This document shows, piece after piece, positions 1 through 61,175 of a stretch of 61,175 bases of DNA. The DNA lies in assembly GCA_029862925.1 (NCBI GenBank), contig JAOTWJ010000005.1:1-61175 (forward strand), given 5' to 3'. How positions within the stretch are numbered: position 1 is the stretch's first letter; every line of letters starts with the position of its first letter. Origin of the DNA: Gemmatimonadota bacterium (GTDB lineage: Bacteria; Gemmatimonadota; Gemmatimonadetes; Gemmatimonadales; GWC2-71-9). Under the pieces are notes generated by a model. The model had not been told where the DNA came from and ran no database searches. It saw nothing but the letters and a program-made list of their open reading frames with translations. The position numbers and the translations under genes are program-made.

Positions 1-3460
<3,460 letters not shown>

Positions 3461-3524
3461 TCTCTCCCTTTGGTATCCACGCACGCATCACCACTACCCA
3501 TTCGTTCCGTTTGTCACTTCAGCC

Positions 3525-3645
3525 ATGGCTGGTGACCAGCGCGACGGGGCCACACCCGTTCCCATCCCGAACACGGTCGTTAAGCCCGTCAGCGTCGATG
3601 GTACTTGGAGGGAGACCTCCTGGGAGAGTAGACCGTCGCCAGCCT
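3525..3645 (+). rRNA. rrf: 5S ribosomal RNA
   Basis: About 119-121 bases. Helix I is closed by GGCTGGTGAC (3526-3535) and GTCGCCAGCC (3635-3644). The internal CCCATCCCGAACACGG loop B/C segment and GGGAGAGTAG are typical of bacterial 5S rRNA. It is the last gene of the rRNA operon. Confidence 0.95.
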
Positions 3646-12262: not shown

Positions 12263-13505
12263 GACGCCTCGAGGTGGCGATCGCCGCCCGGTACCTCCGC
12301 AGCCGGGGCTCGACCCGCATGGTCTCGCTCATCACGTTCATCGCGACGAGCGGGGTCACCGTGGGAGTGATGGCGCTGATCGTCGTTCTCGGTGTGATGA
12401 ACGGCCTGCAGCACGACCTGCGGGAGAAGATCCTGGTCGCCAGTCCGCACCTGCGCCTGCTCACGTTCGGCGAGGGGCTGCGTATGGACGCGTGGCGGGA
12501 GGTCCTCCCGCGCGTGCGGCAGGAGACGGCCGTGGTCGCGGTGGCGCCGTTCGTGCTGAGTCAGGGGCTGCTCTCGGGCGGTCACGACTACGCCGAGGGG
12601 GCCTACGTGCTCGGGATCGAGCCGGATACGGGGGACGTGGCGGTGACCCGGCTCCCTGGGGCGTTCGTCCGTGGGGATCTCACCTTCACGACGACCCGCG
12701 ACGACGTGGACGGCGGAATCGTGCTGGGCAGTCGCCTGGCGGAGCGCCTCATGGCGTTCCCCGGGGCCATGGTGACCGTCATCGCGCCGGCCGGCAGCCG
12801 GTTCAACTCCGCGGTGGGCGCGTTCGTGCCGAAGTACTGGCAGTTCGAGGTCACGGGGTACTTCGAGACCGGTATGTACGAGTACGACAACGGCTACGCC
12901 GTGCTGCCGCTGGCGGCGGCCCAGGCGTTCGCCGGCCTGGGCGACGCGGTCACGGGGCTGGAGCTCCGCTTGCGCGATCCCACGCAGGCGCCCCTCGTCG
13001 GGCGGCGGCTGGAGGAGGCTCTCGGGTACCCCTACCGGGCTCTCGACTGGCAAACGCAGAACGCATCGCTGTTCTCCGCGCTCCAGCTCGAGAAGCTCGC
13101 GATGGGATTGATCCTGCTGCTCATCGTCGTCGTGGCGGCCTTCAACATCGTGAGCACGCTCACGATGGTGGTCACCGACAAGACGCGCGAGATCGGGATT
13201 CTGCGGGCGATGGGACTGTCCGCCGCGGGGATCCGCCGCATCTTCGTCCTGCAGGGCGCCGTGATCGGTGTGGTGGGCACTGCCCTTGGCAGCGGCCTGG
13301 GGCTGGCGGTGGCGCGGTTCGTGGACCGCAGCCAGTTGATCCGGCTCGATCCGACGGTCTACTTCATCGACCGGTTACCGGTGCGCGTCGATCCGGTCGA
13401 TGTGGCGATCGTCGTGCTCGCGAGCCTGGTCGTCGCCGTGGTGGCGACGCTGCACCCGGCGCGGCGGGCGGCGCTGCTCCACCCCGTCGACGCGATTCGG
13501 CACGA

Positions 13506-13509
<4 letters not shown>
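12259..13509 (+). CDS. LolC/LolE-type lipoprotein-releasing ABC permease
   Basis: A 416-residue permease of the FtsX/MacB family. A first transmembrane segment (about residues 20-45, SLITFIATSGVTVGVMALIVV) precedes a periplasmic domain. Three C-terminal transmembrane helices begin near 275 (MGLILLLIVVVAAFNIVSTL). The coupling-helix sequence TREIGILRAMGLS is typical. With the downstream ATPase it probably extracts outer-membrane lipoproteins for LolA. Only one permease gene is present, so a homodimer (LolF style) is likely. The GTG start overlaps lysS by 4 bases. Confidence 0.88.
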
Positions 13510-14206
<697 letters not shown>

Positions 14207-27141: not shown

Positions 27142-28457
27142 GCGACGGCCGGACCGCCGCCGGTGTCCGCACGGCCCGTGAACTGGTGGGCCGCAGCAAG
27201 GACCCGGTCCTCAGCGAAGACAATCCCTTCGAAGCCATGATGGCCCGCTTCGATTTCGCCGCGGAGCAATTGCGGCTCGATCCGGGCATCTACAAGGTCC
27301 TGCGCGAGCCCGAGAAACAGATCATCGTGGCCGTGCCCGTCCAGCAGGACAGCGGGGAGATCGAGGTCTACACCGGATACCGGGTTCTGCACAACACGTC
27401 GCGGGGACCGGGCAAGGGCGGCATCCGCTTCGACCTCAACGTGACGCTCGACGAGGTCAAGGCCCTGGCGGCCTGGATGACCTGGAAGTGCGCGGTGGTG
27501 AACATCCCGTTCGGCGGGGCCAAGGGCGGGGTCGTGTGCGACCCCAGCGGGCTGTCGATCGGCGAACTGGAGCGCCTGACGCGGCGGTACACCGCCGCGC
27601 TGATCGAGACGCTGGGGCCCGATTCCGACATCCCGGCCCCGGACGTGAACACGAACGAACGGGTCATGGCCTGGGTGATGGACACCTACTCCATGCACAA
27701 GCGGCACGCGGTGACCGCGGTGGTCACCGGCAAGCCGGTGGAGATGGGTGGCTCGCTGGGGCGGCGGGAGGCGACCGGGCGGGGCTGCATGATCACGACG
27801 CGCGAAGCGCTGAAACACCTCGGGCTGCCGTTGCGCGGCACCAAGGTCGCGGTGCAGGGGTTCGGGAACGTCGGGTCCGTCACGGCGACTCTGCTCGAAC
27901 AGGAAGGCCTCACGATCGTCGGGCTCAGCGACAAGACCGGGGCGATGTACAATCCCAACGGGATCTACATCGGGGACGCCCTGAAGTGGGTGCACGAGCA
28001 CCGCTATCTCGCGGGGTATCCGAACGCCGATCCCATCAGCAACGACGAGCTGTTGGAACTGGACGTCGACGTGCTGGTGCCGGCGGCCGTCGAGAATGCG
28101 ATCACGCGGAAGAACGCCGCGCGCGTCAAGGCGCGGGTCATCTGCGAGGGCGCCAATGGCCCCACGACCCCGGGGGCCGATCGGATCCTGGAGGAGCAGG
28201 GCGTCTTCGTGATCCCCGACATTCTCGCCAACGCCGGGGGCGTGACGGTCAGCTACTTCGAGTGGGTTCAGGACCGGGCCGGGTACTTCTGGGACGAGCC
28301 CACGGTCAACGAGCGTCTGGAGTCGGTCATTCGTCGCTCGTTCCACGACGTGCTCTCGGTCGCGGACCGCTACGAGGTCAACATGCGCACCGCCGCGTAC
28401 ATGCTGTCCGTGGAACGCGTGGCAGCCGTCCATCGGCTGCGCGGCATCTATGCCTGA
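27138..28457 (+). CDS. gdhA: glutamate dehydrogenase (Glu/Leu/Phe/Val family)
   Basis: A 439-residue enzyme interconverting glutamate and 2-oxoglutarate with NAD(P). The substrate domain has [14 protein letters not shown] and [14 protein letters not shown], the catalytic Lys region. The Rossmann dinucleotide motif [12 protein letters not shown] is near residue 240. The length matches hexameric bacterial GDH. Overlapping ends with lpxK and rlmH show that it is co-transcribed with envelope genes although it is a central-metabolism enzyme. Cofactor preference was not decided. Confidence 0.92.
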
Positions 28458-28930
28458 TGGTGGTGCACGTCGTCGCGGTCGGCCGAGTCCGCGACGCGGC
28501 GCTGCGCGCGGCGTGTGAGGACTACCTGCGGCGCGCACGGCGCGGGCTGAAGATCCGCGTTGCCGAGGTCCCGGACGCCGGTCGGCGGGCGCCAACGCCT
28601 GCGGCGGCCCGGCGGCTCGAAGCGATGCGCCTGGACGCCGCCGTGCCGCCGGGTGCCTACACCGTGGCGTTGACGCGCACCGGCCGCCCCCTCTCGAGCG
28701 ACGCGTTCGCGCGGCTGCTCGGGCAGTGGCGCGAGGGCGCCCGGGACGTCGCCGTCCTGCTGGGCGGGGCGTTCGGACTCGACGACCGGCTCCTCGCGGC
28801 CGCAGACCTCCAGCTGAGCCTCTCGCCGCTGACGCTCCCGCACGATCTCGCCCGACTGCTGGTGCTCGAGCAGATCTACCGTGCCGGGACCATCCTGCGG
28901 GGCGAGCCGTATCACAAGGGTCGGGGATGA
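28457..28930 (+). CDS. rlmH: 23S rRNA pseudouridine(1915) N3-methyltransferase RlmH
   Basis: A 157-residue SPOUT methyltransferase that acts on the 70S ribosome. The C-terminal knot carries VLLGGAFGLDDRLL, SLSPLTLPHDLARLL and the end EQIYRAGTILRGEPYHKG, which is the RlmH signature. The ATG shares a base with the gdhA stop, and its end overlaps the next gene as ATGA. Confidence 0.93.
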   Translation: MVVHVVAVGRVRDAALRAACEDYLRRARRGLKIRVAEVPDAGRRAPTPAAARRLEAMRLDAAVPPGAYTVALTRTGRPLSSDAFARLLGQWREGARDVAVLLGGAFGLDDRLLAAADLQLSLSPLTLPHDLARLLVLEQIYRAGTILRGEPYHKGRG

Positions 28931-43333: not shown

Positions 43334-43929
43334 GCCTGTGGCTCGCGCTCGCGGTGTCCTATCTCCTCGGGGCGATCCCGATGTCGTGGCTGGTCGGCCG
43401 GATCGGCGGCGTCGACTTGCGGGCGCACGGGAGCGGCAACCTGGGGGCAACCAACCTCTATCGGGTGCTCGGGTGGCGCTTTGCGATTCCGGCTGGGCTC
43501 TTCGATGTCGGGAAGGGCGCCCTGCCCACGCTCGTGTTGCCCGCCCGCGTGGGCACCGCGGATTGGCTTCCGCTGGCGGTGGGAGCCGCCGCCATCGTGG
43601 GGCACGTGTTCTCGGTGTTCGTGCGCTTTCGGGGAGGGAAGGGGGTGGCGACGGCGGCTGGTGTGGTGCTCGCGTTGGCACCAATCCCGCTGCTGGCAAG
43701 CGCCGTCGTCTGGGGGGCGGTGCTCAAGACCACGGGCTACGTGTCGCTCGCCTCGATGCTGGGTGCCGTGGCGTTCCCGTTCGCGGCCCTGGGCCTGGGG
43801 GCGGCAAACCCGTATGTGGTGCCGGTCGGGGCCGCGCTCGCGGCCTTCATCCTCTACACCCATCGCGCGAACATCCGTCGGCTGCTGGCGGGAACCGAAA
43901 ACCGGTTCGGCCGGCGGCGGGAGGCCTGA
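43330..43929 (+). CDS. plsY: acyl-phosphate glycerol-3-phosphate acyltransferase PlsY
   Basis: A 199-residue membrane acyltransferase starting phospholipid synthesis. LLGAIPMSWLVGRI, GSGNLGATNLYR near residue 36-47 and VRFRGGKGVATAAGVVLA near 98-115 are the three PlsY motifs. Multiple transmembrane helices are visible. It overlaps der by 4 bases and precedes gpsA, whose product is its substrate. Confidence 0.94.
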   Translation: MSLWLALAVSYLLGAIPMSWLVGRIGGVDLRAHGSGNLGATNLYRVLGWRFAIPAGLFDVGKGALPTLVLPARVGTADWLPLAVGAAAIVGHVFSVFVRFRGGKGVATAAGVVLALAPIPLLASAVVWGAVLKTTGYVSLASMLGAVAFPFAALGLGAANPYVVPVGAALAAFILYTHRANIRRLLAGTENRFGRRREA

Positions 43930-47975: not shown

Positions 47976-48650
47976 GTGGCAGCCGATACGAAAGTGAAGA
48001 GCCCGACGCCACCAGCGGACACGGAACGTGCCGAGAAGTTCGTTGGCTGGTTTCAGAAGAACCGGCGGCCCCTGACCATCGCGGGGTTCGTGGCGCTCGT
48101 CGTGGCTGGCGGAACCTGGTTCGCGGTCACGGCGAAGGCCCGGCGTGAGGCGTTTGCCGGGCGGGAACTCGCCGATGCCAGAGCGGCGGCTGAGTCGGGA
48201 AACCTGCCGCTGGCCGCGAGCGGCCTGTCACGGGTCATCGCCAGCTATGGGGGCACGGCCGCGGGTCAGGAGGCGCGTCTGCTTCTCGGCCAAGTGCGGC
48301 TGCTCCAAGGGCAGGCGGCCTTGGCGGTCGCCGACCTTCAGGACTTCGTCGCGGCCGGTCCGTCCGAGCGGTACCGGGCCCAGGCGTACGGCCTCTTGGG
48401 GGCCGGCCTCGAGCAGACCGGTCAGTTCGGATCGGCGGGGCAAGCCTACGAGGAGGCTGCCAGGGCTTCGGGTTATCGGCTCGAGCAGGCCAGGCAGCTC
48501 CTGAACGCCGGGCGCGCGTTTACAGCGGCTGCCGACACGGCAGCCGCCATGCGGGTGCTCGATCGCGTTGTGGCCGAGCAGGCTGGTTCCGCGGCGGCTG
48601 CCGAAGCCAAGATCCGGCTGGGGGAGCTCGGCAAGTACACGTCGGGCTAA
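47976..48650 (+). CDS. YfgM-like single-pass TPR protein
   Basis: A 224-residue protein from a GTG start preceded by GAGGGA. A cytoplasmic N-terminus (VGWFQKNRRPLTIAG) is followed by a transmembrane helix near residues 34-52 (IAGFVALVVAGGTWFAV). Ala/Gly/Leu-rich TPR-like helices fill the rest, as in the YfgM/TPR_21 family. E. coli YfgM associates with the Sec translocon and periplasmic chaperones. This is the last + strand gene before dif. Confidence 0.75.
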   Translation: MAADTKVKSPTPPADTERAEKFVGWFQKNRRPLTIAGFVALVVAGGTWFAVTAKARREAFAGRELADARAAAESGNLPLAASGLSRVIASYGGTAAGQEARLLLGQVRLLQGQAALAVADLQDFVAAGPSERYRAQAYGLLGAGLEQTGQFGSAGQAYEEAARASGYRLEQARQLLNAGRAFTAAADTAAAMRVLDRVVAEQAGSAAAAEAKIRLGELGKYTSG

Positions 48651-48697: not shown

Positions 48698-48725
48698 ACT
48701 TCGTATAAGATATGTTATGTTAAGT
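48698..48725 (+). other. dif chromosome dimer resolution site (XerC/XerD)
   Basis: Twenty-eight bases in the dif layout: ACTTCGTATAA (XerC half), GATATG (6-base centre), TTATGTTAAGT (XerD half). The XerD half differs at one base from E. coli TTATGTTAAAT, and the XerC half resembles ACTTCCTAGAA of B. subtilis dif. The partner recombinases resolve chromosome dimers here during division with FtsK. It lies in the only gap where gene direction reverses, so it also marks the replication terminus zone. It is AT-rich in GC-rich DNA. Confidence 0.88.
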
Positions 48726-48894: not shown

Positions 48895-49725
48895 CTAGAA
48901 GCCGGCTTCGAGAACCCCCCGAAACACCAGCTTGCCTTCCCCTCCGAGGCTCGGGGTGTGGAGGTGGCGGGTCTCGGGGTCCAGTTTTCCGGAAACGGTG
49001 AGCACGGTGCCCGAGCGGGTGTGGACCGACCACGGCAGCGAGGTTCGTCCGGTCGAGCTCAGGATCAGGCTGCTCGCCACGGCCCCCGTTCCGCACGCCA
49101 GGGTCTCGTCTTCCACGCCTCGCTCGTAGGTCCGCATCGCCCACGAGTCGCCGCTCGCCGCCACGAAATTCACGTTGGCGCCGGCTTCCCCGAGCGACGG
49201 GTGGGCGCGCAGCGCCCTGCCCCGGCCGAGCACGTCGACGGTCTCGAGGTCGTCGACCCGGACGACCAGGTGCGGGACCCCCACCACCGCGTAGCCGATC
49301 TCGTGCTCACCGGGGTTCGGGTCGATTTCGGGGAACCGGACATCCGTCACGTTGGGCAATGCCAATTCGGCGCGATCGCTGGTATCCGGGACGCAACGCG
49401 ACCGCACGAGGCCGGCGTCGGTTTCCAGGCGCACATCGTCGGCAGGCGCGAGTTCCAGAAGGGCCGCGAGCCGGGTGGCGCACAGGGCGCCGTTCCCGCA
49501 CATCGCCCCGCGGGAGCCGTCGGAGTTGAAGAAGTGAAACCGCACGGCGCCCGGACCGCTGCCCGGGCCGAGCACGATCAACCCGTCCGCGCCGACGCCG
49601 GTCCCCCTGGCGCACACACGGCGAATGCGATCCGCGGGCCAGGCGTCCAGCTCGGTCCATCGGCCGTCGAGGAATACGAAGTCGTTCCCCGAGCCGGTCA
49701 TCTTGTAGATGATCTCGCCGCTCAT
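48895..49725 (-). CDS. dapF: diaminopimelate epimerase
   Basis: A 276-residue enzyme converting LL- to meso-diaminopimelate for lysine and peptidoglycan. The start YKMTGSGNDFVFLDGR is diagnostic. The two catalytic cysteines are in MCGNGALC (about residue 76) and LACGTGAVASS (about 217). The usual Arg after GNGA is Leu here. It overlaps the upstream glycosyltransferase gene by 4 bases and is the last - strand gene before dif. Confidence 0.94.
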   Translation of the reverse strand: MSGEIIYKMTGSGNDFVFLDGRWTELDAWPADRIRRVCARGTGVGADGLIVLGPGSGPGAVRFHFFNSDGSRGAMCGNGALCATRLAALLELAPADDVRLETDAGLVRSRCVPDTSDRAELALPNVTDVRFPEIDPNPGEHEIGYAVVGVPHLVVRVDDLETVDVLGRGRALRAHPSLGEAGANVNFVAASGDSWAMRTYERGVEDETLACGTGAVASSLILSSTGRTSLPWSVHTRSGTVLTVSGKLDPETRHLHTPSLGGEGKLVFRGVLEAGF

Positions 49726-50441
49726 AGCCGTCCCAGGAGGGCCAAAAGGCGTAACCGCCAGACCATCCATACGGCCTCGCGGACGATGGCGCCGGACATC
49801 TTGCTTTCCCCGTCTGTCCGATCGACGAAGACAATCGGGATTTCGATGATCCGGAAGCCCTTCCGGGCAGCCCGGAAACTGACCTCGATCTGGAATGCGT
49901 ACCCGTTGGAGCGGACCGCGTCGATATCGATAGCTTCCAAGACGCGCCGCCGGAAGCACTTGTAGCCTCCGGTCGCGTCATGCAGGCGCAGACCGGTCAC
50001 GACCCGGGCGTAGATGTTCGCGGAGTAGCTCAGAAAGAGCCGTGCCATGGGCCAGTTCACGACCGTGACCCGCCCCCCGAGGTACCGGCACCCGAGCACG
50101 AGGTCGGCGTCCCGGATGGCATCCAGGAACTGCGGCAGGTGCTTGGGGTCGTGGGAGAAATCGGCGTCCATCTCGAAAACGAACTCGTAGTCGCGGGCCA
50201 GCGCCCAGCGGAATCCCGCACGGTACGCGGTCCCGAGCCCTTCCTTGCCCGGCCGGTGGAGCACGTGCACGCGTCCCGATTCCTGGGCCAATTCGTCGGC
50301 GGCCTGGCCGGTGCCGTCGGGGGAGTTGTCGTCCACCACGAGGACGTCCAGCGACGGATCCTGGGCGAGAATCTGTGGCACGATTTGCCGCAGGTTCTTG
50401 ATCTCGTTGTAGGTCGGGACGATGACAAGCCCGCGCTCCAT
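49722..50441 (-). CDS. DPM1-like polyprenol-phosphate mannosyltransferase (GT2)
   Basis: A 239-residue cytosolic GT2 enzyme without C-terminal helices. VIVPTYNEIKNLRQIV, VVDDNSPDGTG near 35-45 and MDADFSHDPKHLPQF near 91-105 hold the donor and metal sites. GGYKCFRRRVLEAID and SNGYAFQIEVSFRA are conserved in Dpm1. It probably makes a polyprenyl-phosphate sugar (mannose or glucose). Overlapping neighbours dapF and the YfhO-like gene point to donor supply for the YfhO-like protein. Confidence 0.88.
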   Translation of the reverse strand: MERGLVIVPTYNEIKNLRQIVPQILAQDPSLDVLVVDDNSPDGTGQAADELAQESGRVHVLHRPGKEGLGTAYRAGFRWALARDYEFVFEMDADFSHDPKHLPQFLDAIRDADLVLGCRYLGGRVTVVNWPMARLFLSYSANIYARVVTGLRLHDATGGYKCFRRRVLEAIDIDAVRSNGYAFQIEVSFRAARKGFRIIEIPIVFVDRTDGESKMSGAIVREAVWMVWRLRLLALLGRL

Positions 50442-52873
50442 CAGTGCCTCTGCCGGCGCGCGCGCAGGCGGCGTGTGGCGAGCGGCGCCGCGAAGACGGC
50501 GGCGACGATCAGGAGGCTGACCCACGTGATCGCGCGTCCCCGCTCGTAGTCGGCGCTGCGGAACCGCAGGGTAACGTCCCGCGCCCCTCGGGAAACCGGC
50601 ACCGCAAGCAAGGACGCGTCGCCGCGCAGTACGGTCGTCTCGTGGCCATCCACCATCGCGTGCCAATCGGGATAGAAGTTCTCCGCGACGAGTACGTAGC
50701 CCGCGTCGGGCGCCGCTGGCTCGACGCGCAGGCGCATGGCGCCGGGTTCCCAGGCCTCGACCTCGACCCGGGCATCGAGCGGCGGCGGAAGCGAGTCCAC
50801 GGGCGCCGGCACGAGCGCGGCCGCCGTATCGAGCAGCACCAACCGATCGAACGGCAGTCCCGACCGCGGATCGGCCACGGTCGGAACGGCCCGGTCGTCC
50901 GGGAGCTTGATGGCGGCGGGCACTAGCCGGGCGTAGGGCATCGGCGTCCGGCGCACGAGCAGGTCGGCCGGGCGCCCGCGGGCCGTGGGAACGCCTGCCA
51001 TGGCGGTGTCGAAGTCGGCACCCAAGTTGGCGTAGGCCGGCAGCTGCGTGCCGAGATCGGTGCCGCTGGGCAGCAGGACGAATTCCACCGCGTACAGGTC
51101 CCACAGGCGCCGGCTGCTGAGCAGGTACCGCCATTGGTTCTTGCCGCCCAACAGCTCGTTGAAGTGGTGCAGCTGGTTTCCGTGATGGCCCAACAGCTGC
51201 GGGATGCGATACGCCATGAGCGACGCGCCGGGATAGACCTCCACCCCGGTGTCGGACAGATCGAGTACGCGGGAGGGTCCCGTTCGGGTGCGCAAGGTCT
51301 CGGTGATCGCGTCTCCCCCATACAGGCCGGTTCGTGGGTCCTCGGTGTAATCCCAGAACGCCCGAGCGTTCTGCCACAGATCCGCGCTCACGAGGAGCGG
51401 CAGCGCGAGTGCCAGCCCGATCGCTGGAACCCGCCCGCGATGGGCGGCCCACGCCAGCGCCCCGAGGGCGATCAGGGCCAGTCCGCTGAGGAGCGCCCCG
51501 GTGCGGATGGCTCCCTGCGCGGCGCCAGCGGCGTCGGTGACCGCCCTTCCCTGCTCCAGCTCGATGCCGCGCGCGAGCGACTCGGCGAGACCGCCCACGG
51601 CGCCTACCGCCGCGAGGAGGACGACGATCGCGCCCGCGACGAGCCAGGCCGTGCCCCAGCGCCGCGCTTCCCCCCGCTCGATGCGGTGCACGCCGAACCC
51701 GGCGAACAGCGCGACGACGAGTGCCACCACGTACAGGGCCATGCCCGGTGCCCGCACCTTCTGCATGAACGGCATCACCTGCCACCAGATGCGGTAGAAC
51801 GGCGTGCCGGCACCCAGGCAGATGAGGAGGAACAGGAACGCGACCCCCCCGAGCCACAGTACCAGGCGCCGCCGGGCGCGGTCGGCGACCCCGACGACGG
51901 CGAGGGCCACTGCGGTGAGACCGAAGTATTCGGAGTGCAGCTTCAACGGGTTCGTCGCCCAGTAGGTGCCGTCCTGGGTGGTGCCCGTGAACCCCGCGAG
52001 GAAGAACTCCGGCACGTGCGTCCACGGGATGGCGTAGGACGTCGCCCCCTCGAACCCGTAGTACGTGTCGGCTCTCGGCGAGAATGGCAGGTACGCCATG
52101 AACGGCAGGATCTGGATCATCCCGATGCCGAACCCGACGGCCACGGCCAGCAGGGCGAAGCCGAGCCCGGCGAGCCGGCCCGCCAGGGGGCGCGCGTCGG
52201 TTTCGCCGAACGTGAGGTAGAGTGCGAAGATCCCCGCCGCGACCAGCAGGTAGTAGGTCATCTGGGCGTGGGGCGAGAGGAGGGCGAGCCCCACGCTCAG
52301 CGCGACCAGGCCGTAGCCGGCCGGTCGGCGGTCCCGCATGCCCAGCACCAGACCGATCAGCGCGAGCGGAAGCAGCGTGGTGACGAACAGCTTCCCGTCG
52401 TGGCCCGGCTGCACGTAACTGCCGATCACGCCCGAGAGTTGGTACGCGGCCCCCCCGGCGACGGCGCCGGCCCACGACGTCCGCAGGAGGCGCAGCAGCA
52501 GGTAGACGAACAGGCCGGCCAGCACGTAGTGCACGACGAATCCCAGCCCCATGGCGAAGCCCGTCGGCAACACCAGGCGCAGCCAGGCCGTGGGGTAGAA
52601 GATGTCGCCGTGCATGGCGCCCACGAATGGCAGTCCACCGAACAGCTCGGGGTTCCAGAGCGGGATGGCCCCCGTGCGTTTCCATTCCTGGGCGAGCCAG
52701 TCGCGAAACGCGTAGCCGCTGTGGTACTGGTCGCTGTACGGGCCCGCGAGGAACCGCCCGGTCCACAGCGGCAGCGACAGGATCGCGATCCAGAACGAGA
52801 GCAGGCCGGTCGCCACGAGGGTCGGAAACCGAGGCTCGAAGCCCTGATCACGCTGGTCGGGAACCGTCGTCAC
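50441..52873 (-). CDS. YfhO-like polytopic membrane protein (GT-C type)
   Basis: An 810-residue protein with about 11-13 transmembrane helices in residues 20-470. A large periplasmic C-terminal domain and a final helix near 785 (AITWVSLLIVAAVFAAPL) follow. The first loop holds GPYSDQYHSGYAFRDWLAQ with acidic residues expected of a GT-C catalytic site. LWNPELFGGLPFVG, PHAQMTYYLL and PAAPDAGYVLVAENFYPDWH are YfhO family features. YfhO proteins transfer sugars from polyprenyl phosphate to envelope polymers or proteins. The acceptor is unknown. It shares one base with the DPM1-like gene. Confidence 0.85.
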   Translation of the reverse strand: MTTVPDQRDQGFEPRFPTLVATGLLSFWIAILSLPLWTGRFLAGPYSDQYHSGYAFRDWLAQEWKRTGAIPLWNPELFGGLPFVGAMHGDIFYPTAWLRLVLPTGFAMGLGFVVHYVLAGLFVYLLLRLLRTSWAGAVAGGAAYQLSGVIGSYVQPGHDGKLFVTTLLPLALIGLVLGMRDRRPAGYGLVALSVGLALLSPHAQMTYYLLVAAGIFALYLTFGETDARPLAGRLAGLGFALLAVAVGFGIGMIQILPFMAYLPFSPRADTYYGFEGATSYAIPWTHVPEFFLAGFTGTTQDGTYWATNPLKLHSEYFGLTAVALAVVGVADRARRRLVLWLGGVAFLFLLICLGAGTPFYRIWWQVMPFMQKVRAPGMALYVVALVVALFAGFGVHRIERGEARRWGTAWLVAGAIVVLLAAVGAVGGLAESLARGIELEQGRAVTDAAGAAQGAIRTGALLSGLALIALGALAWAAHRGRVPAIGLALALPLLVSADLWQNARAFWDYTEDPRTGLYGGDAITETLRTRTGPSRVLDLSDTGVEVYPGASLMAYRIPQLLGHHGNQLHHFNELLGGKNQWRYLLSSRRLWDLYAVEFVLLPSGTDLGTQLPAYANLGADFDTAMAGVPTARGRPADLLVRRTPMPYARLVPAAIKLPDDRAVPTVADPRSGLPFDRLVLLDTAAALVPAPVDSLPPPLDARVEVEAWEPGAMRLRVEPAAPDAGYVLVAENFYPDWHAMVDGHETTVLRGDASLLAVPVSRGARDVTLRFRSADYERGRAITWVSLLIVAAVFAAPLATRRLRARRQRH

Positions 52874-52902
52874 CGCACGCTCCGTCGCAAGAAGGACGAA
52901 AC

Positions 52903-53811
52903 TTAACTGCTGGTCGCGGCGTCACGACGCTCGCGCAGGGCCAAGCCCGCCACGGCGGCCAGCGCCTCGGTCAGGGTCAGGAGCAGCCGTGAGGCCACGG
53001 TGAGCGCGAGGGCCGGTCCGCTCCCCAGGGCGGGCGTGAGGAACGCCAGGAACACGGCTTCGCGCACACCCACGCCCCCCGGCGCAACGATGGCGAGGAG
53101 TCCCACGAGATACCCGGCGGCGAACACGCCGGACGCCGTGGCGAGCGACAGGGTGGTGGGCCCCAGGATACCGCGGGCGAGGCACCAGAATGCCGCGCCG
53201 TAACCGACCCACGCCACGGCGGTCGCCCCGGTCGCGCGCAGCACGGCGCCCGGCGACAGCGGGCGCAGGTCGGCTCCGGGGATGATACGGGCCACGAGTT
53301 GCGCCGCGCCGGGCATGGTGAACGTGAGCACCAGGGTCGCGGCGACCACGAGCGCGGCGCCGAACGCGAGTGGCGAGGCGGCTCCGGGGACGGTTGCGAG
53401 GGCGACGATGACGCCGCTGCCGACGGCCACGGCCTGCATGACGATGGCGGACCCGACGGCCGCCCACGGAGCGACACCCCGCCGCTGCGCGAGCACCGCG
53501 AGTCCGGCGACGCTCCACACTTTGCCGGGCAGATACCGGCCCAGGTTCGAGAGCGTCCAGATCCGCACGGCCGGCAGATAGGGGAGGCGCTGATCCCAGC
53601 CCGTGATAATGCCGCGCCACGCGGCAATCAGCAGGCCGTACGTGGGCAGCACCGCGGCGGCGGCCAGGGCGATCCACCCCAGGTGGAGTGTCAGCCGGAC
53701 GTCCAGCGTCCGGAACTGGTCCCAATGCGCGTGCAGGGAGCGCCAGACGAGCACCGCCACGGCGAGGAGCAGCAGGGCTTGGAGCGCCCACACCCACGGG
53801 CGGCGCGTCAC
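52903..53811 (-). CDS. YbhN/AglD-like membrane protein (LPG synthase-like domain)
   Basis: A 302-residue membrane protein with about 7-8 helices, from a GTG start overlapping the GT4 stop. TLSNLGRYLPGKVWSVAGL near residues 85-103 and IVAPGGVGVREAVFLAFLTP near 240-260 are signatures of the YbhN/UPF0104 lysylphosphatidylglycerol-synthase membrane family. There is no catalytic LPG synthase C-terminal domain. In this cluster it could be the flippase for polyprenyl-linked sugars; that role is inference. Confidence 0.8.
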   Translation of the reverse strand: MTRRPWVWALQALLLLAVAVLVWRSLHAHWDQFRTLDVRLTLHLGWIALAAAAVLPTYGLLIAAWRGIITGWDQRLPYLPAVRIWTLSNLGRYLPGKVWSVAGLAVLAQRRGVAPWAAVGSAIVMQAVAVGSGVIVALATVPGAASPLAFGAALVVAATLVLTFTMPGAAQLVARIIPGADLRPLSPGAVLRATGATAVAWVGYGAAFWCLARGILGPTTLSLATASGVFAAGYLVGLLAIVAPGGVGVREAVFLAFLTPALGSGPALALTVASRLLLTLTEALAAVAGLALRERRDAATSS

Positions 53812-54962
53812 TTGGCGACGACTCCGCGCAACGTCTTTTCGAACGCGGCGGCCGCGGCGGCCGGGCGCAGCCGGTCGCGCCAGACCGCCCCGGCCGCGGC
53901 CGCGCGCGCGCGCGCTCCGGGGTCGCGCAGCAGCGTGAGCGTGGCCTCCGCGAGCTTCGCGGGATCGGGGGGAACGATGAGACCAGCTCCCGCTTCCGGG
54001 CGCACGATGTCGAGCACCCCGCCCCCGTCCCCGCACGCCACGACGGGAACCCCCAGCATCAGCGCCTCGGCTGCGGCGAGGCCGAACCCCTCCCCGCGCG
54101 CGGGAAACACGAACACGTCGGCGTCACCGATGGCGTCCGGCACGCCCTCCGGCGGCACCATCCCGACGAATCGGACGGCCTGCGCGATCCGCAGGTGGCG
54201 GGCGCGGGCCTCGAGGGCCGGTCGCTCCGGCCCATCGCCCACGATCGTGACCGGGACGCGCTGCCCCCGGCAGTGCAGCTCCGCGACCGCGTCCAGCAGC
54301 AGGTGAACCCGCTTCTGTCGACTGAGGCGACCGACCGCGGCGATCCCGGCTCCCCCGGCGCTGACGTGCGCGCCGGCCGGCCGGTCTGCCGGCATCGGGA
54401 TCACGGCGGGCGCGCGGTTCAGCCCCGCGCGCCCGGCGAGCGATGCGACGTACGACGAGACGACGGTCACGGCGGCGGCGTCGCGCAGCACCGGCCGACC
54501 GGTCCACCGCGCGATCCGCGACCGCCGGAACAGGGCGGCGTCCGTGCCGTGCAGCGTCACCACGTAGGCCGGGGCACCGCGCCGATGCGCGCGCCGCGCC
54601 GCGAGGCCCGCGGGCACCCACCAATTGGCGTGGACGACGTCGGCCGCGGTCTGCCGCTCGAGGATGGCCGCTTCGAGCGCCCGGAGCAGGCCGAGAAAGA
54701 CCCTGAGCCCGGCGGGGGATCGAACCGCGCGTACCATCGTGCCACGGTAAGCCAGGGTCTCCCGCGCGGGGGCCGCGTAGCGGACCCACGTCGTCACGAC
54801 GCCGTTCCGCGTGGCCGTCCCGCTCCGTCCCTCATCGGCCGGCGCGAGGACCGCGACCTCATGGCCGCGCTCGGCGAGCGCCTGGTAGAGGCGCTCGAGG
54901 AACGCGCCTGCCGGGTCGCCGGCCCACCGCGGATAGGCGTGCGTGACCGCGAGGATGCGCAA
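53808..54962 (-). CDS. glycosyltransferase family 4
   Basis: A 384-residue GT-B enzyme. The N-terminal Rossmann start is RILAVTHAYPRWAGDPAG with a glycine-rich acceptor loop. VHANWWVPAGLAARR, AVGRLSRQKRVHLLLDAV near 210-227 and the GT4 EX7E motif in ARGEGFGLAAAEALMLGVPVV near 290-310 follow. The frame stays open further upstream into the GT2 gene, so the start is uncertain. TTG 54962 is chosen because it leaves a short gap after the GT2 stop and begins at the conserved core. Confidence 0.85.
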   Translation of the reverse strand: MRILAVTHAYPRWAGDPAGAFLERLYQALAERGHEVAVLAPADEGRSGTATRNGVVTTWVRYAAPARETLAYRGTMVRAVRSPAGLRVFLGLLRALEAAILERQTAADVVHANWWVPAGLAARRAHRRGAPAYVVTLHGTDAALFRRSRIARWTGRPVLRDAAAVTVVSSYVASLAGRAGLNRAPAVIPMPADRPAGAHVSAGGAGIAAVGRLSRQKRVHLLLDAVAELHCRGQRVPVTIVGDGPERPALEARARHLRIAQAVRFVGMVPPEGVPDAIGDADVFVFPARGEGFGLAAAEALMLGVPVVACGDGGGVLDIVRPEAGAGLIVPPDPAKLAEATLTLLRDPGARARAAAAGAVWRDRLRPAAAAAAFEKTLRGVVAK

Positions 54963-54970
54963 CGGTCGTT

Positions 54971-55936
54971 CTACGGGCGCGGCCCGCCCCGCCGATCGGC
55001 GAGACGGTCGACCGCGCGCTGCAACGCGCGCACCTCTTCGCGCATGGCGGCCAGGAGTTCGCCCAAGAAGCCGACCCCGAATAGCGCGAGCCCACCCAGG
55101 ACCAGCACGAGCACCAGGTACAGCAGCGGCCGGAAGCCGTAGCCAAACCCGAAGCGGAGCACGAAGGCCACGACGCCGGTAAGCAGGCCCAGCAGCAGGA
55201 GCATGCTGCCCGAGAGGCCGAAGAACAGCAGCGGCTTGCGGCCGAAGCGAAGCTGGAACCACACCGACAGCAGATCGAGCATCCCGACCGGAATGCGTCC
55301 GAGCCCGAACTTCGACCGCCCCGCCAGCCGGGGGCGGAGGGTCACGGGGCGTTCCGTGACGCGGAACCCGTCGGCGGCGCCGATGATCACCATGAACCGG
55401 TGCCAGTCGGGACGGGCCGGCACCACCTCCGCCACTTCACGGCGGTAGGCCTTGACGGCGTTCAGGTCGGTCACGCGGATGCCGAACAGCCAGCGGCACA
55501 AGCGATTGTACACGCCGGAGACGAAGGCCTTCTCGTACGTCCCCTGCTTGGTGCCGGTGACGATGTCGGCCTGGCCGTCCCGAATCGGGGCGACGAGGCT
55601 CGCGATCTCGGACGGCAGGAACTGCAGATCGGCCGGATAGAACACGAACGTCCTGCCGCTGGCGCGCTCGGCGGCCGACCGGAGCGCGTCAGCGATGCCG
55701 CGACAGGCACGGTGGGTCACGACGCGCAGAAACGCGTACTCCCCCGCGAGGCGCTCGAGCACGGCGCCCGTCTCGTCCTCGCTCCCGTCGTTCACGATCA
55801 CGACTTCACACGCGTAGGGCTCGGAGGCGAGCGCCGCCGCACACTGGCGGACGAACTCGGGGAGGTTCTCGGCCTCGTCCTTGGCCGGCACGAGCACGCT
55901 CACCTCGGCTTGCGTGTCGCGATCGGCGAGACTCAT
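54971..55936 (-). CDS. GtrB/CsbB-like membrane glycosyltransferase (GT2)
   Basis: A 321-residue GT2 enzyme. VSVLVPAKDEAENLPEFV and VIVNDGSEDETGAV form the donor site. YPADLQFLPSEI is the metal-site region. The C-terminus has two transmembrane helices near 229-255 and 262-285 plus a charged coiled tail. This GtrB/CsbB layout synthesises undecaprenyl-phosphate glucose or GlcNAc. It overlaps rpoN by 4 bases. Confidence 0.86.
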   Translation of the reverse strand: MSLADRDTQAEVSVLVPAKDEAENLPEFVRQCAAALASEPYACEVVIVNDGSEDETGAVLERLAGEYAFLRVVTHRACRGIADALRSAAERASGRTFVFYPADLQFLPSEIASLVAPIRDGQADIVTGTKQGTYEKAFVSGVYNRLCRWLFGIRVTDLNAVKAYRREVAEVVPARPDWHRFMVIIGAADGFRVTERPVTLRPRLAGRSKFGLGRIPVGMLDLLSVWFQLRFGRKPLLFFGLSGSMLLLLGLLTGVVAFVLRFGFGYGFRPLLYLVLVLVLGGLALFGVGFLGELLAAMREEVRALQRAVDRLADRRGGPRP

Positions 55937-57477
55937 AGGCGTTTGCGCATCCGGGCCGGCAGGATGCCCAGCTGGTCCCGGTACTTGGCGACCGTGCGGC
56001 GCGCGATCCGGACGCCGCGGTCCTTCAACGCATCCACGATCTCGGCATCGGTCAGCGGCTGGTCCGAGGCCTCGTCGCCCACGAGCTTCTCGATCTGCGC
56101 CCGCACGGCCCGCGCGCTCGCATCTTCCCCGGACGTGGTCTCGAGACTGCTCGAAAAAAAGAACTTGAGCGGATATACGCCCCGTGGAGTCTGCACGTAC
56201 TTCTGGTTGGTCACGCGGCTGACCGTGGACTCGTGCATGCCGATGACCTCCGCCACTTCCCGCAGCGTGAGTGGCCGCAGGTACTCGATGCCCTTCTCGA
56301 AAAACTCTCGCTGGCGGTCGACGATGAAGTGCATCACCTTGAGCATCGTCTGGCGGCGCTGTTCGATGGCTTGAATCAGCCATTGCGCCCCGTTCAGCTT
56401 CTCGGTGATGAATTCGCGGGTCTCGCCGGTGAACTGCTTCTTGTTGCCGGCGAGCTCCTGGTAGACCTTGCTGATCCGCAACCGCGGCATGCCCGTGTCG
56501 TTGAGAAAGACCCGGTATTGCCCCTCGATCTTCTCGACGATCAGATCCGGCACCACGTACTCGTCGTCGGACGGGAGGAACCGGAGTCCCGGCTTGGGGT
56601 CGAGCTTGGCCAGCTCGTCGGCGGCGTCCTGCACCGCCTTGGGGTCGATGCCCCGCCGCTTCGCGATATCACTCCAGCGGTGCCCGATCAGATCGTCGAA
56701 CGCCTCGTGCACGAGATGGTACGTGAGCGTGTCCTGCAGGTCCATGTCCTCGAGTTGCAGCAGGAGGCACTCGCGCAAATCGCGCGCGCCGATGCCCGCG
56801 GGGTCGAGCGCGTGGAAGACCCGCAACATCGTCTCCGCCTCGGCCACGGTGAACGGGCCCTGGGTGACAGGCTCCGCGGGCTCGGCGGGCTCTGCGGGCG
56901 CGGTGGATTCGGCGGGCGCGGTGGATTCGGGGACCGGCGTCGCGGCGTCGGTGGCGTCGTCGCTGTGCGTCGTGGTGCCCCCGTTCTCCCACCCGTTGAT
57001 GCCGGCAACGATCTCCTCGAGGGTGGCGTGGAGATAGCCGTCATCACCCAGATTCCCCAGAAACTCCTCCGAAAGGCGACGCTGTCGGTCGGTGAGGTCG
57101 AGCATGAGCAGCTGGTCGCGCAGATGATCGGTCAGGGCCCGGCTCTGCACCGGCGTGCGCTCGAACACCTCATCCGAGTAGGAAAGATCGCGCGCCCCGG
57201 AGCCGGCCTGGAAGCCGTCGAGGATGATCTCCTCCCAATCGGTCTCCTCCTGCTTCTCCGCCTCTTCGCGCTCGCGCTCCGTATCGGCCGTCTCGCCGAG
57301 CGCGACCTCATCTTCCGCCTCGAGCATCTCGAGGAACGGGTTGACGAGCAACTCCTGCTTGAGGTGCTGCTGCAGATCCAGGAGGGGCATGTACAGGAGA
57401 TCCATCGCCTGGTACAGGCGAGGATTCATCCGCAACTCCTGGCGAAGCGTCGCGCTCTGGTGCAGGCCCGGTTTCAT
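55933..57477 (-). CDS. rpoN: RNA polymerase sigma-54 factor
   Basis: A 514-residue sigma-54. Region I (QSATLRQELRMNPRLYQAM) is Gln/Leu-rich, a long acidic region II follows, and the core-binding region is at about 115-340. The helix-turn-helix is TLREVAEVIGMHESTVSRVT. The RpoN box ARRTVAKYRDQLGILPARMR is near the C-terminus. Region II contains a Thr-Ala-Pro-Ala-Glu repeat (about 180-200) from short tandem DNA repeats at about 56877-56935. It lies next to lptB as in many Gram-negatives. No enhancer-binding regulator is in the window. Confidence 0.95.
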   Translation of the reverse strand: MKPGLHQSATLRQELRMNPRLYQAMDLLYMPLLDLQQHLKQELLVNPFLEMLEAEDEVALGETADTEREREEAEKQEETDWEEIILDGFQAGSGARDLSYSDEVFERTPVQSRALTDHLRDQLLMLDLTDRQRRLSEEFLGNLGDDGYLHATLEEIVAGINGWENGGTTTHSDDATDAATPVPESTAPAESTAPAEPAEPAEPVTQGPFTVAEAETMLRVFHALDPAGIGARDLRECLLLQLEDMDLQDTLTYHLVHEAFDDLIGHRWSDIAKRRGIDPKAVQDAADELAKLDPKPGLRFLPSDDEYVVPDLIVEKIEGQYRVFLNDTGMPRLRISKVYQELAGNKKQFTGETREFITEKLNGAQWLIQAIEQRRQTMLKVMHFIVDRQREFFEKGIEYLRPLTLREVAEVIGMHESTVSRVTNQKYVQTPRGVYPLKFFFSSSLETTSGEDASARAVRAQIEKLVGDEASDQPLTDAEIVDALKDRGVRIARRTVAKYRDQLGILPARMRKRL

Positions 57478-58652
57478 GCCGCCGACCCCAGTCTCGTGCG
57501 CAGGCGCTCCGTCAGCGTGGGGCCGAGATACAGGTCGGCCACCTGGTCGTCGAACACCAGCTGCCGTACCGTGCCCGCAACCTGGACGCGGCCCTCGAAG
57601 AGGATGTAGGCGCGATCGACGATATCCAGGGTCTGCTCCACGTTGTGGTCGGTGATCAGGACGCCAATGCGCCGCCGGCGCAGGTCGGCCACGATGGTCT
57701 GGATGTCATTGACCGCGATCGGGTCGACGCCCGCAAACGGCTCATCGAGCAGCATGAACTTCGGTTCGGTCACCAGGGCACGCGTGATCTCGAGCCGGCG
57801 GCGCTCGCCACCCGAGAGCTTGTACGCCTTGACCTCCCGCAGGTGCTTGATCGAAAGCTCGTCGAGCAACTCCTCCAGCCGCTGCTCCCGTTCCGCGGCC
57901 GTCAGCACTTGGGTCTCGAGGATGGCGAGCACGTTCTCCTCGACCGTGAGCTTCCGAAACACCGACGGTTCCTGCGCCAGGTAACCGATCCCGCGGCGTG
58001 CCCGCCGATACATGGGGAGTCCGGACACGTCCTCCCCGTCGATGTAGATCCGGCCCGTGTCCGGGCGCACAAGCCCGACGATCATGTAGAAGGTCGTGGT
58101 CTTCCCCGCCCCGTTGGGTCCCAGGAGTCCCACGATTTCCCCTTGTCGCAGGCTCACGTCGACCGCGTCCACCACGCGGCGCCGCCGGTATACCTTCGTG
58201 AGTCCGCGGCCCGTTAATTCGCTGCCGGAGGCGGCGGTCGCCTCGCCGACCGACTCCGCGGCCGTGGCGCGCTCGGCCGCCGCGGCGACCAGCGCCTGCC
58301 GGAGGCCGTCGCGATCCTCGAGACAGGCGCGCCACCGCGCGGGCAGCATGCGCACCAGGGCGGCGTCATCCCACGACTGGTCGCTGGGCTGCAGGAACCC
58401 GTCGGTCACCAGCCGCGGCAGCACCGACGAGGCCAGGAACCGGCGGACCTCATCCATCGAGAGCGTGCCGCCGCGCGCGCCGGCGCCCAACCCGGTGTCG
58501 CGCATCAGCGCCAAATGGTCCTCCCGGTACGCCACCGCCAGCGTACCGAACGAGGCCGCGCCGCCGTCGTCGGCCACCCGGATGAACGCCGCCAGCGCCA
58601 GCGGCAGCGAGGGGTTGCGCTCCTGCGCGAGCGGGCCCAGGAAGTCCGTCAC
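57474..58652 (-). CDS. lptB: LptB LPS export ATPase with N-terminal extension
   Basis: A 392-residue protein. Residues about 145-392 are a normal LptB (family length about 241): Walker A LGPNGAGKTTTFYMIVG near 178-185, Q-loop YLAQEPSVFRKLTVEEN, signature LSGGERRRLEI, Walker B LLDEPFAGVDPIAV, and switch TDHNVEQTL. Residues 1-140 are an extra domain with helices and a possible winged-helix feel (FGTLAVAYREDHLALMRDTG, SMDEVRRFLASSVLPRLV) that I do not recognise. The GTG at 58652 overlaps the LptA stop as GTGA, which supports the long form. The ATPase drives LPS to the outer membrane with LptC/LptA. Confidence 0.9.
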   Translation of the reverse strand: MTDFLGPLAQERNPSLPLALAAFIRVADDGGAASFGTLAVAYREDHLALMRDTGLGAGARGGTLSMDEVRRFLASSVLPRLVTDGFLQPSDQSWDDAALVRMLPARWRACLEDRDGLRQALVAAAAERATAAESVGEATAASGSELTGRGLTKVYRRRRVVDAVDVSLRQGEIVGLLGPNGAGKTTTFYMIVGLVRPDTGRIYIDGEDVSGLPMYRRARRGIGYLAQEPSVFRKLTVEENVLAILETQVLTAAEREQRLEELLDELSIKHLREVKAYKLSGGERRRLEITRALVTEPKFMLLDEPFAGVDPIAVNDIQTIVADLRRRRIGVLITDHNVEQTLDIVDRAYILFEGRVQVAGTVRQLVFDDQVADLYLGPTLTERLRTRLGSAA

Positions 58653-59947
58653 GGCTGCCGCCTCGGCGCTTCGAGGTAGACGCCGTCACTCTTCCCGGCG
58701 ATGTCCACGCGCAGCAGGCGGTCGTCCCGGAACTGGGCGCGGATCCGGTCGCCGCGCGAATAGCTGATGTCCGGCGTAGTGCTGCGATCGGCCGACGCGT
58801 AGACCCGGTAGCGGGCGCGCGCGGCACCCGCGGCTTCGATCGCGGCCAGCGTCGTCCCGCCGTCGCGGCCTGGGGCGAACCGCGCGACGACGGTGTCCCC
58901 CGCCACCCAATCCTCGTCCGTGTCGAGCGAGTCCTGGCGCGACGCCGCCCGGGCCGCGCCGATGCCCCGCACTTCCCGCAGCAGTTGGGCGGGCGCGGTG
59001 ATCGCGAGCGAGTCGGCCAGAATCGTATTCCGCGCCGACACCGCCACCGGACGGCGCGCGCTGCCCCATGCGGCCCCTCCCTGCACACGGTCGTCCATGA
59101 TGTCGAACTGGACCGTGTCCGACGTCACACGCCACTCGCCGCTGGTGGCGTCGGCCTCGCCCTCGGCCTGTACCCAAGTCAACGCGCGCGCGCGCAGCCG
59201 GTAGCGGATGTCCTGACCCACGAGGCGATAGCCGCTCGCCTCGCCGCCGGCGACGCTCGCTCGCCCCATCAGACGGCCGACCTCCTGACCCGTGTCGAGG
59301 AAGGCGCTGTCGCCCGCCCCGTGGAAGTCACTGCGGTCGATCGTGACCCGACCCCAACCCCGGGCCGCCGTGTTGCCCCGGAAGGACACGCGGTCGGCGA
59401 TGATCAGGTACGGCTCGGCGTCCGGCGGATCGCCTTCCGAGCGGTATTCGATGGTGGGACGGCCGCCCGCCCGCAGCTCGGTCGTGTCGCGGATGCCGAG
59501 GACCCGTCGGTAGTACTGCACGTTGGGACCGCGGAGCACCGAGCCGGTGATCCGATTGCGGAGTCGCGCGTTGCCGGTGGCATCGAGTCGCTCGTCGCGC
59601 AGGAAATAGCTGGCCCGGTCGGCCGTGAGTTCGGCGGTCGCGTCCCGGAAGTTGACGCGGCCCAGCATGTCGAACCGATCGAAATCCTGAAACCACGCGA
59701 CGCTGTCCGAATACCAGAACGTGTCCTGGCCGCGACAGTGGGCCCAGATCCCGCCACCCTGGAACCATCGGACGTACCCGCCCCCCACGTCGATCTGACG
59801 CCCGACGCCGCCCGTGCTGTCGACCACCACGAAGCAGGTGCTCGCGGTTTGGGCCGCGGCGGGACCGGCGGTCGCCAGGGCCAGCGCGGTCAGGACGGGC
59901 GCGGCGCCCGCGACGGAGCGACACCGGGATCCCCGCATCGCGCGCAC
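58649..59947 (-). CDS. LptA/OstA-like periplasmic LPS transport protein
   Basis: A 432-residue exported protein with signal peptide APVLTALALATAGPAAAQ. Repeated OstA beta-jellyroll units are seen: GQDTFWYSDSVAWFQDF, GRVNFRDATAELTADRASYF, GNARLRNRITGSVLRGPNVQYY. They are spread over residues 50-300, far longer than E. coli LptA (about 185). It resembles the long OstA-like proteins of Bacteroidota. With LptB and LptC it forms the bridge that carries LPS to the outer membrane. GTG 59947 is 2 bases after the lptC stop; ATG 59938 is possible. Confidence 0.8.
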   Translation of the reverse strand: MRAMRGSRCRSVAGAAPVLTALALATAGPAAAQTASTCFVVVDSTGGVGRQIDVGGGYVRWFQGGGIWAHCRGQDTFWYSDSVAWFQDFDRFDMLGRVNFRDATAELTADRASYFLRDERLDATGNARLRNRITGSVLRGPNVQYYRRVLGIRDTTELRAGGRPTIEYRSEGDPPDAEPYLIIADRVSFRGNTAARGWGRVTIDRSDFHGAGDSAFLDTGQEVGRLMGRASVAGGEASGYRLVGQDIRYRLRARALTWVQAEGEADATSGEWRVTSDTVQFDIMDDRVQGGAAWGSARRPVAVSARNTILADSLAITAPAQLLREVRGIGAARAASRQDSLDTDEDWVAGDTVVARFAPGRDGGTTLAAIEAAGAARARYRVYASADRSTTPDISYSRGDRIRAQFRDDRLLRVDIAGKSDGVYLEAPRRQP

Positions 59948-59949
59948 CG

Positions 59950-60516
59950 CTAGCGGTCGATCTGCACGCGGCCGATGGCACCGCGCGCCCGGGTGGTCTG
60001 GACGTTCCGCAGGTCGGGATCGCTGGTGAACGCGTCGCCCTCGACGCGCTGCTCCGGCGTGATCCAGACGAACGCCTCCGGCCCGACGATCTCGTTGCGC
60101 GTCCGGCTGTAGCGCAGCACGGACGTCTCGAGCCGGCGGCCATCGGGGCTCAGGGCGACGACGTTGCCCCGCGCCTCCATGTCACCGGTCCGCCATTCGT
60201 AGGTCCCGTCGCGCGCCGTGAGCGTGGACGTCTCTCGCCCCTCCGGCGAGTAGAACGTGACCCGGAGACCGAACAATCGATGGCGCTGGGCGCGATGGTA
60301 GGCGTAGGCGGAGTCGGCGGTGAGCCGCATGCGGCGCATGCCGTCTTCGGTGAGGAAGTGCATGATGCCGTAGCCGATCTGATCGGCCGAGTCGGCCTCG
60401 GTGGCCGTCGTGGGCGGCTGTTCCACGCCCGCGCAGGCCGCCAGTTGCAGCGCCGCCCAGGCAAGCACGCCCGCACCCGCGCTAGCGCGACTGGGCGACA
60501 CTGGGCCGCGCGGCAC
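59950..60516 (-). CDS. lptC: LptC-like LPS export protein with lipoprotein-type signal
   Basis: A 188-residue protein. A lipobox-like LQLAAC near residues 22-28 follows a hydrophobic stretch, so it may be lipid-anchored rather than tethered by a helix as in E. coli LptC. The body, GLRVTFYSPEGRETSTLTA, GTYEWRTGDMEARGNVVA and WITPEQRVEGDAFTSDPDL, is the LptC/LptA jellyroll. The start may be GTG 60516 or GTG 60501; either overlaps kdsC. Confidence 0.85.
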   Translation of the reverse strand: MPRGPVSPSRASAGAGVLAWAALQLAACAGVEQPPTTATEADSADQIGYGIMHFLTEDGMRRMRLTADSAYAYHRAQRHRLFGLRVTFYSPEGRETSTLTARDGTYEWRTGDMEARGNVVALSPDGRRLETSVLRYSRTRNEIVGPEAFVWITPEQRVEGDAFTSDPDLRNVQTTRARGAIGRVQIDR

Positions 60517-61060
60517 GCTCGCCGCGCTCCGTCAGGTAGGCTTCCACCGTGCGCTCCCAGTGGCCGCGGGCGCGCAGGAACTCCTCGACGAATTCCCGCA
60601 CCGCGCCGTGCCCGCCCCGGGCCGTCGTCACGTGGCGGGCGGCAGCCTTCGCGTCGGGCGTGGCATTGGCCACCGCGACGGGTAACCCCACGCGCCGCAG
60701 CACGGGTACGTCCGGCAGATCGTCGCCGACAAACGCGGCGTCCTCCCAGCGCACGCCGAACCGCGCCAGCAGGTTCTCGAACGCCGGCAGCTTGCGAGCG
60801 TGGTCGTCTTGCACGCAGGCATCCACCTGCAACTCGGCGGCTCGCACCTCGGTCGCCTCGGATCGGCGCCCACTCAGGATGACGATCTTGAGTCCGGCGT
60901 GCCGCAATAGCGCCACGCCGATCCCATCCTGGATGTCGAAGCGCTTGAACTCGGTGGGACGGTTGTCCACGAGTCCCACGTACACGCCGTTGTCGGTGAG
61001 GACGCCATCGACGTCCAGACCGACCAGCCGAATCTGCTTGGCCTGCAGGGATTCAAGCAC
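60482..61060 (-). CDS. kdsC: 3-deoxy-D-manno-octulosonate 8-phosphate phosphatase
   Basis: A 192-residue HAD phosphatase (C0 subfamily) releasing Kdo. The nucleophile motif is LDVDGVLTDNG near residue 14-24, motif 2 ILSGRR, the Lys in DDHARKLPAFE, and motif 3 VGDDLPDVPVL. The GTG at 61060 overlaps the kdsA stop by 8 bases and follows GGGGAG. An in-frame ATG at 61084 would add eight residues. It acts directly after KdsA in Kdo synthesis. Confidence 0.92.
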   Translation of the reverse strand: MLESLQAKQIRLVGLDVDGVLTDNGVYVGLVDNRPTEFKRFDIQDGIGVALLRHAGLKIVILSGRRSEATEVRAAELQVDACVQDDHARKLPAFENLLARFGVRWEDAAFVGDDLPDVPVLRRVGLPVAVANATPDAKAAARHVTTARGGHGAVREFVEEFLRARGHWERTVEAYLTERGERAARPSVAQSR

Positions 61061-61175
61061 GGACCATTCTCCCCTGGGCGGCATGCCACACGTCGAGCAC
61101 GCGGGTCATGAGCTCGTCGAGGTCGGCGAGGGGCCACATCGAGGAGCCGTCGCTGGGGGCGGTCTCGGGCGCCGG
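61053..61175 (-). CDS. kdsA: 3-deoxy-8-phosphooctulonate synthase KdsA, C-terminal end (partial)
   Basis: The last 40 residues of a protein running off the right edge. APSDGSSMWPLADLDELM matches the KdsA end, where SDGPNM and PL are conserved after the last strand of the TIM barrel. KdsA condenses PEP with arabinose-5-phosphate to Kdo-8-phosphate. It is followed directly by kdsC, whose enzyme uses its product. The call rests on a short segment plus context. Confidence 0.72.
   Translation of the reverse strand, partial: PAPETAPSDGSSMWPLADLDELMTRVLDVWHAAQGRMVRA

Follow-up and report, generated by a model that had tools for sequence, protein, structure and literature searches.

Chromosomal dif sites have been collected across bacteria by Kono et al. 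2011, who predicted one in the sole Gemmatimonadetes genome then available (PMC3025954); among the closest known systems is XerCD-FtsK of E. coli. For Gemmatimonadota, a conserved region of 600 kb with high strand bias has been described around ter and contains rRNA operons and core genes (Tomasch et al. 2024, PMC11237797), and the main text of that paper places the strand switch together with the GC-skew switch at ter. In the same main text dif is treated in general terms only, and neither a dif sequence nor Xer genes are named. A search of the open literature gave no paper that joins Gemmatimonadota, a dif site and Xer.

Here we describe a window of 61,175 nucleotides, which is all of contig 107 of a 3.49-Mb Gemmatimonadota MAG assembled in 290 contigs; the assignment of the window to Gemmatimonadota rests on named relatives in the genome collection. 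One 28-mer in it (Table 1) is predicted from its sequence and setting to be the chromosomal dif site of this bacterium, recognized by XerCD, and we put the probability of this reading at about 0.96.

Table 1. Features of the window around the predicted dif site, with a DnaA-related protein recorded beside them
Feature	Position	Strand	Remarks
Predicted dif site, 28 bp, ACTTCGTATAAGATATGTTATGTTAAGT	48698..48725	+	exact, single-copy, conserved across the phylum
Predicted XerC half-site ACTTCGTATAA	48698..48708	+	aligned with the two confirmed dif sites (E. coli, B. subtilis) given in PMC3025954
Central region, 6 bp, GATATG	48709..48714	+	
Predicted XerD half-site TTATGTTAAGT	48715..48725	+	TTATGT nearly invariant in 41 sites
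TPR-repeat protein gene	47976..48650	+	weak TPR_21/TPR_6 matches; ends 47 bp before dif
dapF, diaminopimelate epimerase	48895..49959	-	Pfam PF01678, E 2.5e-35; first gene on the XerD side
YfhO-like, LPG synthase-like, glycosyltransferases, rpoN block	50441..57477	-	Pfam; synteny in relatives
rRNA operon (3' part of 16S, 23S, 5S), toward dif	1..3644	+	Rfam
KOPS-like GGGNAGGG cluster	43510..43643	+	copies at 43510, 43631 and 43636 point to dif; opposing copy at 43520
Other KOPS-like GGGNAGGG copies	1303, 19080, 19680, 39227, 47158	+	
Other KOPS-like GGGNAGGG copies	49215, 51544, 54088	-	
Double-PF00308 protein	G000:C282:3055-4644		homologues in G001, G021, G026, G045, G067, G082, G093, G094, G100

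The 28-mer and its conservation

The earlier note on this DNA had read the 28 bases as an XerC half, GATATG and an XerD half close to the dif sites of E. coli and B. subtilis. Both statements stand: the bases are found exactly on the plus strand with an 11-bp XerC half, a 6-bp centre and an 11-bp XerD half, and the half-sites are identical at 7-10 of 11 positions with the two reference sites, which are the experimentally confirmed ones printed in PMC3025954. The 28-mer is situated in a gap of 244 bp between the end of the TPR gene (48650, plus) and the 3' end of dapF (48895, minus). It was the sole match with up to three mismatches in the window, against none in 100 shuffles. The note had proposed a search for further copies and had named a better dif candidate elsewhere as refuting; neither was found in the own genome, where the motif is single-copy.

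Comparison of 41 sites showed that both arms hardly vary in their inner parts, while the centre and the outer XerC bases are the most variable blocks; within the XerC half, CGTATAA is nearly fixed and the outer bases vary. A more variable XerC half and a more conserved XerD half are reported as typical of dif (PMC3025954). The pattern with fixed arms and an unconstrained centre matched 59 of the 101 genomes in the relatives set. With relaxed arms it was present in 87 of these genomes, almost always as one copy per genome, and phylum-wide in 330 of 395 genomes, nearly always once; the control pattern read backwards was near zero, occurring in almost no genomes. Fourteen of the 101 relatives, some of them more than 95% complete, gave no match at the relaxed-arm threshold.

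In five genomes (G039, G062, G203, G206, G209) contigs end no more than about 100 bases from dif, and two apparent copies result. Integrated elements were considered as the source of these extra copies and rejected, since the copies lie at the ends of contigs and resemble overlaps from assembly; they may represent strain variation at dif. The second copies in G146, G157, G302, G324 and G394 differ in sequence, and G305 also has a second copy.

Recombination proteins, KOPS and gene direction

The own genome encodes an XerD above the NCBIfam cut-off and a second close, XerC-like paralogue, which is presumably XerC. All catalytic residues of XerD (R, K, HxxR, H, Y) are present in the expected motifs. 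The FtsK of the own genome carries a gamma domain, and this domain can be aligned with FtsK gamma domains of solved structure, the stretch RIGYxRAARI included.

Besides this gamma domain, KOPS converging on dif were found. Eleven of the 12 E. coli-type KOPS GGGNAGGG in the window point to dif, and in the flanks of 40 relatives 194 of 213 copies are directed toward dif with 19 opposing. Among 56 patterns of the same composition, GGGNAGGG had the strongest leading-strand bias both in G067 and in the flank set; in G093, where its bias does not depend on gene strand, it ranked fourth. The KOPS signal might stem from coding-strand bias, but in G093 the 56-pattern comparison and the gene-strand split speak against this. 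Where genes are nearly all co-directional, part of the signal may come from codon use, which makes the flanks less clear than G093.

All Pfam-supported genes from 4103 to 48650 are on the plus strand and all those from 48895 to 61084 on the minus strand, and the rRNA operon and two tRNAs are likewise on plus. This bears out the earlier claim that genes left of dif run on plus and genes right of it on minus; the plus block, given before as 3862-48650, keeps its direction, and its start is extended to base 1 by the rRNA operon. Two minus ORFs proposed by a crude caller in the left arm (13359-14165 and 28448-28915) were rejected because they have no Pfam match, while the plus ORFs overlapping them match an ABC transporter and a methyltransferase. 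At the loci of relatives, genes left of dif were 243 plus and 29 minus, and genes right of it 17 plus and 198 minus. Most relatives have genes converging on dif, and there are a few exceptions. Plus-strand ORFs against the general direction were seen right of dif in L079 and L072. The switch of gene direction would mark the meeting of two replichores, the genes of both arms being transcribed in the direction of replication.

Terminus position and neighbouring genes

In four gap-free relatives the distance from dif to dnaA amounts to 41.6% (G067), 43.8% (G094), 45.0% (G082) and 47.9% (G093) of the chromosome. Between dnaA and dif, 7 of 8 stretches sampled in G067 had positive GC skew, and on the way back from dif to dnaA all 12 were negative; G093 was similar and noisier, and in both the sign changes at dnaA and at dif. 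The dif-dnaA distance and the skew of G021 and G058 were discarded, and these two genomes were left out as scaffolds joined by 100-N runs and not chromosomes. Their sequences G021:C1 and G058:C1 are presented as single chromosomes, and the order of the 100-N-spaced scaffolds is not evidently chromosomal.

Locally, 38 of 41 loci had higher GC skew left of dif, on the XerC side, than right of it, and the cumulative maximum fell within 500 bp of dif in at least 21 of 41. In the window alone, cumulative GC skew forms a broad plateau with its maximum at 53981, about 5 kb off dif, and the T-A skew reaches its highest value at 48599, which is 99 bases from dif. The GC-skew inflection, which the note expected at about 48.7 kb of the window, is found at dif in complete relatives; the window's own maximum is elsewhere, and the sharp inflection is visible in relatives and not in this contig alone. 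The terminus and the GC-skew switch were located in closed relatives, the own assembly being fragmented. As far as the observations named beforehand as refuting could be checked (a skew inflection elsewhere, a better site, many copies), the dif reading of the earlier note is supported.

The neighbourhood of dif is conserved in three families (f1, f2, f3). There dapF is on the XerD side of dif at every one of the 41 loci, never more than 4 kb away and in 38 of them within 400 bp; the TPR gene was found left of dif in 37 of 41. After dapF usually come YfhO, LPG-synthase-like, glycosyltransferase and rpoN genes. In L079, L098 and L072, extra DNA of 0.9-4 kb separates dif from dapF. In other families of the class the motif persists, dapF was not detected beside it and a TPR gene was detected in some. 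Further out on the XerD side, five relatives have xerD about 17-21 kb from dif. As in the window, a 16S gene directed toward dif lies about 47-53 kb away on the XerC side in G067, G082, G093 and G094, and no further 16S turned up in G067 or G093.

Besides the normal DnaA, a second protein has two matches to the DnaA AAA+ domain (PF00308) in one open frame (Table 1); it is about 200-290 kb from dif in G067, G082, G093 and G094.

It is possible, and we suggest it tentatively, that dif, the TPR gene, the genes from dapF to rpoN, xerD at about 20 kb and the rRNA operon at about 47-53 kb make up a terminus module that kept its place while an order diverged. The terminus, which is usually fluid, might then be a stable anchor of chromosome organisation.

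Interpretation and comparison with known systems

By analogy with the E. coli pathway, at division FtsK would load on KOPS and translocate toward dif, FtsK would contact XerD, and XerCD would recombine two dif copies and resolve the chromosome dimer.

A dif-like attachment site of an integrated Xer-dependent mobile element or phage could in principle give the same motif, as mobile elements with dif-like sites exist (PMC3025954) and extra DNA separates dif and dapF in a few relatives (L079, L098). But the site occurs once per genome with no second site flanking an insert, the second copies in some MAGs lie at the ends of contigs and have the look of assembly overlaps, and housekeeping genes on both sides are kept across three families. 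This conserved synteny already largely refutes an element, and we consider that origin very improbable. Equally little weight is given to another conserved non-coding element, such as a bidirectional terminator or promoter with a chance likeness to dif, even though the site is intergenic between two convergent genes and has an AT-rich core similar to a -10 box. Neither a terminator nor a promoter was matched at the site, and the motif persists in other families without a detected dapF neighbour. Base conservation follows the XerC/XerD layout, which counts against a chance resemblance of that kind.

A chromosomal dif at this position would mark the terminus at base level in a phylum that is known mainly through fragmented MAGs; with it, contigs can be oriented and claims of strand bias checked across hundreds of genomes. 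The strand-bias region published for Gemmatimonadota is now tied to a specific site and to KOPS, and models of its conservation therefore become testable against FtsK/Xer function. With the region of Tomasch et al. 2024 the window shares the strand switch at ter and the rRNA operon inside; gene directions, with nearly all genes on the leading strand, and rRNA position are those of a high-strand-bias terminus, of which 61 kb of 600 kb is seen here.

With E. coli, the predicted site shares the 28-bp 11-6-11 layout, and an XerC-like protein, XerD, FtsK gamma and GGGNAGGG KOPS are all present here. By eye, the XerD half is identical at 10 of 11 positions, whereas the XerC half is identical at 7 of 11 and the neighbouring genes differ. 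Compared with the dif of B. subtilis (RipX/CodV), each half is identical at 9 of 11 positions by eye, and the central region and flanks are different. The nearness of xerD to dif in the five relatives differs from its usual place near the origin as given in PMC3025954. The finding is a well-supported example of a site already known, within an architecture already known, and mostly ordinary. What goes beyond the earlier papers, as far as their main texts show, is dif at base level in hundreds of genomes and its coincidence with the strand switch, together with KOPS converging on dif, xerD nearby and the order-wide neighbourhood of TPR-dif-dapF-YfhO-rpoN.
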